Shown: one piece after another, positions 12,990 through 13,839 of the stretch
Layout of the letters: every line of letters starts with the position of its first letter
Position numbering within the stretch: position 1 is the stretch's first letter
From: Oscillatoriales cyanobacterium PMM_0008
Lineage (GTDB): Bacteria; Cyanobacteriota; Cyanobacteriia; Cyanobacteriales; Aerosakkonemataceae
Length of the DNA stretch: 33,062 nucleotides
Direction of reading: 5' to 3'
NCBI GenBank assembly: GCA_949128025.1
Contig: CASBRD010000353.1
Span: 1-33,062 of the forward strand
Position numbers and translations under genes: made by a program
The notes under the pieces: generated by a model
What the model was told of the DNA's origin: nothing
Seen by the model: only the letters and a program-made list of their open reading frames with translations
Databases searched by the model: none

Positions 12990-13038
12990 CAGCCACATAT
13001 CTTGCAATTATTTGATAAGATATGTTAAAAGGTGGCTG
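12990..13038 (+). promoter_or_regulatory. Long hairpin in the infA leader
   Basis: CAGCCAC (12990-12996) pairs with GTGGCTG (13032-13038) and CATATCTT (12996-13003) with AAGATATG (13017-13024), separated by a one-sided bulge. The foldback lies 90-140 nt before infA. Function unknown; it could affect infA expression or mark an mRNA 3' end. Confidence 0.4.
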
Positions 13039-13125
13039 AAGTTTGGCTCAGATGCCTAAAATAGTCGGCGGCAGATTGATTCGATCTGCCCTGTTCAGTA
13101 AATAGAAGCGTTGAGGAAAAATCAA

Positions 13126-13404
13126 CTGTCTAAGCAAGATTTAATCGAAATGGAAGGCACGGTAACCGAGTCCCTTCCTAATGCTATGTTCCGCGTCGAT
13201 TTGGATAACGGATTTAATGTATTGGCCCACATTTCCGGCAAAATTCGCCGTAATAACATCAAGATATTACCGGGCGATCGCGTCAAAGTAGAGCTGACCC
13301 CCTACGATTTGACCAAAGGCCGCATTACTTACCGTGGTACTTATTCCCCCAAATCAAGAAGTTCGGCACCAAGGAAAAAGCAAATTGTCACAGGCTCTAA
13401 TTGA
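13126..13404 (+). CDS. infA: Translation initiation factor IF-1, probable CTG start and extended C-terminus
   Basis: IF-1 occupies the 30S A site during initiation. The S1-type OB fold is complete: [20 protein letters not shown], then [20 protein letters not shown], and [20 protein letters not shown]. In other cyanobacteria the protein begins at SKQD; here that codon position is CTG at 13126, with GAGGA (13113-13117) 8 nt upstream. A TTG at 13111 is in frame and would add five residues, but has no ribosome-binding site. The usual end (ITYRLRKK) is replaced by a 22-residue tail, [19 protein letters not shown] and three more, which runs into a second decayed infA copy. Confidence 0.9.
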
Positions 13405-13601
13405 GATGGAGGGCCCTGTGACAGAGGCCCTGCCCACAGCCGTGTTCCTAGTTGACCTGGATAACGGGGTCGAGTTTTTGGCGCAGATGTCTGGCAAGAT
13501 TCGACGAAATTAGCTCAAAATCTGGCCAGACGATCGCGTCAAAGTGAAGCTTACTTTTGACGACCTTAACAAAAGGCAAAAATAACCGCTCGTCGGGGTA
13601 A
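13385..13601 (+). pseudogene. infA: Decayed second copy of infA
   Basis: A frame starting at TTG 13385 reads [19 protein letters not shown] then [22 protein letters not shown] and hits TAG at 13511; past it the same frame continues LKIWPDDRVKVKLTFDDL, after which one extra A in AACAAAAGG shifts the frame. About 28 of 38 residues before the stop match the intact infA. The upstream segment AAGGAAAAAGCAAATTG (13371-13387) also aligns with the ribosome-binding segment of infA, so the copy includes the leader. It overlaps the last 20 bp of infA. Nonsense codon plus frameshift make a full-length product unlikely. Confidence 0.88.
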
Positions 13602-13667
13602 AAAGTAGGTAAGCTCGACGAGATTTAGGCCCTAAAAATCCATCTTTCGTTAGAGCAGCATAATTAA

Positions 13668-13696
13668 CTGACAAATAAAATTAAAAATGATATAAT
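13668..13696 (+). promoter_or_regulatory. Strong predicted sigma70-type promoter before rpmJ
   Basis: CTGACA (13668-13673, 5 of 6 matches) and a perfect TATAAT (13691-13696) are spaced by exactly 17 bp. Start of transcription would be near 13703, about 23 nt before rpmJ. It would drive rpmJ-rpsM-rpsK-rpoA and beyond independently of upstream promoters. Confidence 0.65.
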
Positions 13697-13725: not shown

Positions 13726-13839
13726 ATGAAAGTTCGAGCATCAGTTCGGAAAATTTGCGAAAAATGTCGCGTCATCCGTAGACGAGGCAGAGTTATGGTG
13801 ATCTGCTCTAACCCCAAGCACAAACAACGTCAGGGTTAG
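13726..13839 (+). CDS. rpmJ: 50S ribosomal protein L36
   Basis: A 37-residue protein beginning [20 protein letters not shown]. It is the zinc-ribbon (C+) form, with ligands C11, C14, C27 and H32 all present. L36 bridges 23S rRNA domains late in 50S assembly. ATG at 13726 is preceded by AAAAAGG; the gene follows a good promoter and precedes rpsM by 84 nt. Confidence 0.97.

Follow-up and report, generated by a model that had tools for sequence, protein, structure and literature searches.

An intact IF-1 gene followed by the decayed remains of a second infA in the soil cyanobacterium Argonema

Initiation factor 1 (IF-1), encoded by infA, is a highly conserved and essential translation factor. 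Pseudogenes of infA are found in chloroplasts, where the gene decays once another copy supplies IF-1, the replacing gene being located in the nucleus. In the locus described here the replacing gene would, in contrast, be a tandem neighbour. IF-1 is single-copy in nearly all cyanobacteria that we searched, in samples of one order and of the class. No description of a tandem infA or of such a relic in cyanobacteria was found among the best-matching titles and abstracts of the open-licence literature, and the term 'infA' does not occur in the main text of the paper describing the genus Argonema. Elsewhere among cyanobacteria, the closest arrangements are two intact tandem infA copies in the genomes G072 and G149 and in G284. 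These resemble the Argonema locus in having an altered copy upstream and a canonical copy downstream, in lying between adk and rpmJ and in lacking Tyr44 in the upstream copy; they differ in that both copies are intact and are separated by gaps of 381-400 bp (G072 and G149) and 208 bp (G284). The window analysed in this study is a stretch of 33,062 nucleotides, and the infA pair lies on contig C353 of G000, a soil cyanobacterium of the genus Argonema with a genome of 5.83 Mb in 469 contigs. Besides the pair itself, the analysis reveals that the decayed copy is the canonical one and the survivor is derived, that the lesions differ between genera and that intact pairs exist in other cyanobacteria.

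The Argonema infA is located between adk and rpmJ, as in relatives, and the features of the locus are collected in Table 1. A profile search of the whole G000 genome with PF01176 scored 97.8 bits at 13144-13335, in the intact gene, and 51.8 bits (E 3.6e-13) at 13400-13570, in the relic, where the match contains one TAG; no third match was obtained at E 0.001 or better, and the copy at 13126-13404 is the sole intact IF-1 gene found in G000. Local alignment of the intact body with the relic at the nucleotide level gave 130 identities, 56 mismatches and 1 gap, with a score of 71; when the relic was shuffled 1000 times in 2-base blocks, no score exceeded 19. The profile matches, the comparison with shuffled sequence and the relatives confirm the original prediction of an intact IF-1 gene overlapped by a decayed copy. 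The overlap is 20 bp, as proposed, the relic TTG being at 13385 and the intact stop codon ending at 13404, and the in-frame TAG had been placed correctly. The number of identical residues before this stop, first given as 28 of 38, is 31 of 42 aligned residues on a recount by eye. The one-base insertion predicted near 13571 is present (near 13571-13574) and common to the genus, but it is not the only one: a second insertion, in the A-run 13578-13582, is found in this genome alone. One codon present close to the start of canonical infA is also missing from the relic, which ends at 13608; the ancestral ending can still be read there as GTAAAAAGTAG (GTAAAAAGTAT in G006). The open part of the relic, of 42 residues, scores 41.8 bits with TIGR00008, under the cut-off of 61.15. 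With its homology to infA, lesions that block a full-length protein and neutral change, the relic is a probable infA pseudogene.

Table 1. Features of the infA pair and its surroundings in the window.
Feature	Position	Strand	Basis
Conserved element TTGATAAGATATGTTAA (first base 114 bp upstream of the infA start), probable infA promoter region	13012..13028	+	
AGGAA, likely ribosome-binding site of infA	13114..13118	+	GTTGAGGAAA precedes infA in the carriers as well as in G003, G004 and G005
Intact infA (IF-1), 92 codons and TGA, putative CTG start	13126..13404	+	Profile matches, alignment, AlphaFold2 OB fold
Codon 44, AAC (Asn), where a nearly invariant Tyr (TAC/TAT) is expected	13255..13257	+	
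22-residue C-terminal tail and stop codon, replacing the ancestral LRKK end; predicted disordered	13336..13404	+	
AAGGAAAAAGCAAATTGTC, identical in the four carriers; putative ribosome-binding site with TTG start formerly used by copy 2	13371..13389	+	
Decayed second infA, canonical type, with native 3' end	13385..13608	+	PF01176 match, alignments
In-frame TAG at relic codon 44; the G006 relic and canonical infA of aligned relatives read TAC	13511..13513	+	
Two single-base insertions relative to canonical infA	13571..13582	+	Alignments
Sigma-70-like promoter (CTGACA-17-TATAAT) before rpmJ, downstream of the relic	13668..13696	+	
rpmJ (ribosomal protein L36), next gene	13726..13839	+	

Among ten genomes of the family Aerosakkonemataceae that were searched, four carry the pair, four have one normal infA and two have no match. 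The carriers are three Argonema genomes (G000, G001 and G002) and a sister genus (G006). G001 and G002 have the same TAG and nearly the same tail as G000, and G006 has the same pair with different lesions. The junction pattern of the pair is also present in NZ_JAIQZN010000020.1 of Argonema antarcticum A004/B2, which adds no fifth carrier. In G003, G004, G005 and G008 a single normal infA ends in LRKK and the tail is absent, so that the predicted loss of the usual short end, with a tail running into the duplicate, holds for all four carriers and for none of the four relatives with a readable infA. The distance from the infA start to the rpmJ start is 599-602 nt in the carriers versus 340-343 nt in these relatives. 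G007 and G009 gave no infA match; when they were searched with DNA of the G003 locus, the matches were confined to the outer parts of that locus, which lay at contig ends, and to short stretches at other places, so that these two genomes count neither for nor against the pair. The unit is bordered by native sequence on either side: the relatives match it in the leader preceding copy 1 and in GTAAAAAGTAG with the sequence downstream of copy 2. Since the pair is present in the four carriers and four other members of the family have one normal infA and approximately 257 bp less before rpmJ, the pair most likely arose when a short unit was duplicated in tandem within the transcription unit of infA.

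The intact copy scores 124.8 bits with TIGR00008 (infA; cut-off 61.15) over positions 1-68 of the 69 of the profile, and 12 solved IF-1 sequences match it by sequence. AlphaFold2 predicts an OB fold of five strands and a short helix (residues 7-70); the best model has a mean pLDDT of 73.6 (others 65.6 to 36.5), with residues 73-92 of the tail under 50, and confidence in it is modest because the alignment comprised only 6 sequences. Compared with bacterial IF-1, the Argonema copy is alike in the whole of the predicted OB fold, in a score above the cut-off, in K39, R41, R66 and R70 and in its adk-rpmJ position; it differs in Asn44, in the 22-residue tail after R70, in the putative CTG start and in the relic behind it. 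Among the basic residues contacting the 30S subunit (K39, R41, R46, R64, R66 and the C-terminal R70, a list taken from PMC10913371), K39, R41, R66 and R70 are kept, and positions 46 and 64 are Lys, as in canonical cyanobacterial infA. The aromatic residue at position 44 is absent, the criterion here being the conservation seen in this study and not a formal family rule. In a model of Clostridioides difficile IF1 on the 30S subunit, R41 and R46 touch A1492/A1493, and Arg70 is reported to be critical in Escherichia coli although its equivalent makes no direct 30S contact in Thermus thermophilus (PMC10913371). No mention of Tyr44 or of R41/R46 was found in PMC13345285. Position 44 sits between R41 and R46 and near the ribosome-contact residues, where Asn44 may exert an effect. 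The variant presumably acts at the A site of the 30S subunit as IF-1 ordinarily does; the simplest view would be that it works as a normal IF-1 and that the tail is tolerated because its first residue comes after Arg70.

The start and end of infA are easily miscalled, as this locus shows. The CTG at 13126, and not the TTG at 13111, is most likely to be the start of the intact gene: TTGAGG is also present in G003, G004 and G008, where it lies in another frame and its TGA reads as an in-frame stop, which makes this TTG an unlikely start. In the loci compared, 66 distinct copies with a recognised start motif begin with TTG (61 copies, including the G006 relic), CTG (four copies, the intact infA of the carriers) or ATG (one copy). 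The predominance of TTG represents a conserved weak start on an initiation-factor gene and might mean self-regulation. Further upstream, TTGATAAGATATGTTAA is the only match in the window with one mismatch or fewer (chance mean 0.01). It has an exact match in 46 of 132 loci, with two matches in each of the G072 and G149 loci, and is probably an infA promoter or operator that is doubled where infA is doubled. The sigma-70-like site before rpmJ was found once where shuffles average 1.6, which is weak alone, and a similar sequence is present at the same place in relatives. As the relic sits between the infA stop and this promoter-like site, its stop codons should spare rpmJ.

Codon 44 separates the intact copy from nearly all other infA genes of the order. 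In pattern searches that both assume the usual neighbouring residues, the Asn44 codon pattern was found in seven of 388 genomes (the four carriers, G072, G149 and G036) and the Tyr44 pattern in 372 of 388, the matches for Tyr44 being unchecked singly and a few genomes having two. The 16 genomes without the Tyr44 pattern comprise the four carriers, nine genomes without any infA match, G036, G040 and G062; of the last two, the one read, G040, has Tyr44 and a difference nearby. G036, from another family of the order, has a single-copy infA (L077) with Asn44 and a normal short end in a genome that is only 75% complete.

Copy 1 is full length to Arg70, after which 22 codons (23 in G006) run into copy 2; in this window it stops 20 bp inside copy 2, in another frame. 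In a set of 30 distinct IF-1 proteins taken from the loci, long tails after Arg70 are confined to the carriers and to second copies; the reading pattern used missed some copies, for example the upstream copy of G284 (no tail) and G622 (tail). Likeness between the tail DNA and the native leader is confined to the region around AGGAAAAA, and the first ~30 bases of the tail have no recognisable counterpart in the leader. The likeness of the G006 tail to the G000 leader was reached by 10 of 2000 shuffles, and that of seven other pairs by 57 to 751 of 2000. Between G000 and G006 the tail has five silent and eight replacement codons of 23 (stop included, extra G006 codon dropped) and appears to be without a clear selection signal. 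Judged from these sequence features, the survivor is the derived form in all four carriers, with Asn44, a CTG start and a tail of 22-23 residues, and the relic is the canonical copy, its Tyr44 codon now being TAG. Argonema and G006 cells appear to rely on the altered infA copy only.

The best explanation, to which we assign a probability of approximately 0.83, is a tandem duplication followed by survival of the derived upstream copy and separate decay of the canonical downstream copy. Before the separation of Argonema and G006, a unit of ~257 bp holding infA would have been duplicated in tandem within its own transcription unit. The upstream copy would have lost its normal end and read on into the start of copy 2, thereby acquiring a basic and probably disordered tail, and the overlap of its stop codon with the start of copy 2 may have coupled the two copies. 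Both copies would have made IF-1 for a time, and the upstream copy would have gained Asn44 and the CTG start. The downstream canonical copy would then have been inactivated separately in two lineages, its remains now drifting neutrally between the stop codon of infA and the putative promoter of rpmJ. This is probably an ordinary duplicate-and-decay history with an unusual outcome, in that the variant replaced the original.

The distribution of second copies in other cyanobacteria bears on where the variant came from. In the order sample of 388 genomes, 14 gave two IF-1 matches: the four carriers and ten others. Intact tandem pairs, for which the original prediction had proposed to look in related cyanobacteria, are present in three of these ten (G072, G149 and G284). 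G033, G058 and G275 have a second copy elsewhere in the genome, in G351 infA is split over two contig ends, and the second match of G127, G170 and G173 falls short of the cut-off and lies inside long reading frames. In the class sample, 11 of 291 genomes, some of the same order and G000 among them, have two or more matches. No tandem infA pair was found in the other ten, which include dispersed extra copies in G535, G558 (two) and G622 and one frame-broken infA in G601, the rest being weak and below the cut-off. Both searches would miss relics too decayed for the profile.

In G072 (L062) and G149 (L061) the upstream copy has Asn44 and a 23-residue tail, like that of Argonema, and is followed by canonical infA. 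The two variants differ from each other by ten silent codons and one replacement codon of 70, and their tails by four and two of 24; these counts point to purifying selection on the upstream variant. A separate promoter-like element precedes each copy and begins 86-90 bp upstream of its start. The upstream copy of G284 (L063) differs in having no tail: it has a normal end, no residue at position 44 (RRN-VKIRPGD) and several other changes. In G072, G149 and G284 alike, and unlike in the carriers, a promoter-like element lies in the inter-copy gap before the canonical copy. Tyr44 is thus missing from the upstream copy in all three tandem lineages, by Asn in the carriers and in G072/G149 and by deletion in G284, and is present, or formerly so (TAC in the G006 relic), in the downstream copies. 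The dispersed copies of G033, G058, G275 and G535 and one of those of G558 have Tyr44, and G622 has His by alignment. Loss of Tyr44 accompanies the tandem arrangement in three of three cases, which are few, and single-copy G036 has Asn44 too. Most of the second IF-1 copies read carry long tails. The six dispersed copies read, L054 (G033), L053 (G058), L055 (G275), L121 (G535), L122 (G558) and L123 (G622), have ends after YR that are longer than in canonical infA; L131 is a further dispersed copy, also of G558.

The survivor could alternatively be regarded as an old or transferred IF-1 paralogue of the same kind as the G072/G149 upstream copy, placed beside the canonical gene. The rarity of the Asn44 pattern and its occurrence in G072/G149, with a 23-residue tail and next to canonical infA, would fit this origin. 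It is nevertheless improbable, since the Argonema and G006 bodies are identical to that of G005 except at residue 44 (Asn) and, in G006 only, at one other residue, whereas the G072 and G149 variants differ from their own neighbours by 11 and 10 replaced codons of 70. The tails of the two groups align poorly, and the promoter-like element stands before both copies in G072/G149 but before copy 1 only in the carriers. The lineages are also far apart in the tree, in which the other genomes have one infA match each. A common origin of the Argonema and G072/G149 variants is unlikely by promoter layout, body sequence and tree, and the duplications in the carriers, in G072/G149 and in G284 are probably separate events.

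In a tree of 26 reading frames of the ribosomal cluster from 18 genomes (5146 columns), G006 groups with the three Argonema genomes (support 100), and G005 comes next (support only 61). Branch lengths per codon position were estimated on a topology fixed by the analyst (relics together, intact copies together, relatives outside). For positions 1/2/3 they are 0.008/0.016/0.252 on the relic stem before the genus split, 0.236/0.092/0.202 on the G006 relic branch and 0.254/0.107/0.501 on the Argonema relic stem, values that are noisy (~74 codons, four carriers, topology-dependent) and in which position 1 of the relic is higher than position 2. The relics of G000 and G006 differ at 25/13/32 of 73 positions 1/2/3 (chi-square p 0.003), and the intact bodies of the same genomes by 27 silent codons and one replacement codon of 70. 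Within Argonema, the relics differ at 2/2/3 (G000-G001), 7/7/7 (G000-G002) and 7/7/5 (G001-G002) of 74; the relic now drifts evenly across codon positions. The lesions also differ: the G002 match holds three TAGs, codon 44 of the G006 relic is still TAC and its frame is broken by a 5-base insertion and a TAA, and no lesion common to the Argonema and G006 relics was seen in the alignments. In a free maximum-likelihood tree of the short copies the two relics did not fall together, and supports in that region were 36 to 55. A tree that places independent duplications in Argonema and G006 has a poorer fit by the AU test (p 0.028), and the KH (0.059) and SH (0.064) tests do not reject it. Tests of a duplication younger versus older than the G005 split do not separate the two (AU p 0.49 to 0.65).

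From the branch lengths, the relic-relic counts and the intact-body counts it would follow that both copies were once genes, that the canonical one was lost twice and that the remainder is drifting. They suggest that protein-level selection acted on the relic before the genera diverged and that this copy was then lost separately in each. The prediction of an old duplication with a once-functional second IF-1 is supported by the alignments, the relic counts and the branch lengths. The third-position excess between the intact copy and the relic was dropped as proof of past function, since the intact copy alone can create such an excess. This objection, and the roughly neutral G006 relic branch (0.24/0.09/0.20), would suit a second copy that was broken from the outset and never made protein, its likeness to infA being residual; the almost exclusively third-position change on the relic stem before the split (on the fixed topology), the uneven changes between the G000 and G006 relics and the lack of any lesion seen in both genera argue against it, and we consider it unlikely. 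Even less probable is a relic still in use, whether it encodes a 42-residue peptide or acts within the infA message as an RNA element. All four carrier genomes retain its ribosome-binding site and TTG unaltered, but the same bases encode RKKQIV of the tail; changes within Argonema are about equal at all codon positions, the relics of G002 and G006 carry further or other breaks, and a peptide of this length would miss the second half of the OB fold. That the stop and frameshifts are sequencing or assembly errors in an intact second gene is scarcely credible, because although the second insertion is confined to this genome, the TAG and the first insertion are common to three assemblies, and error is ruled out for the TAG and the tail by their presence in G001 and G002 and by the differently damaged pair in G006.

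With duplication, survival of the derived copy and loss of the canonical one as the preferred history, a wider and quite tentative proposal is that tandem duplication of infA repeatedly yields an upstream IF-1 of a second kind, with Tyr44 lost beside the decoding-centre contacts and often a basic tail, which might usefully alter start selection or ribosome binding and which, in the Argonema lineage, would have displaced the canonical factor, lost twice. What is new here is that a derived copy appears to have replaced canonical infA and that cyanobacteria with both copies intact exist. The replacement lineage and the coexistence lineages together provide natural intermediates of how a near-invariant factor can change, and the same lineages pose the question of the roles of position 44 and of the C-terminal tail at the ribosomal A site.
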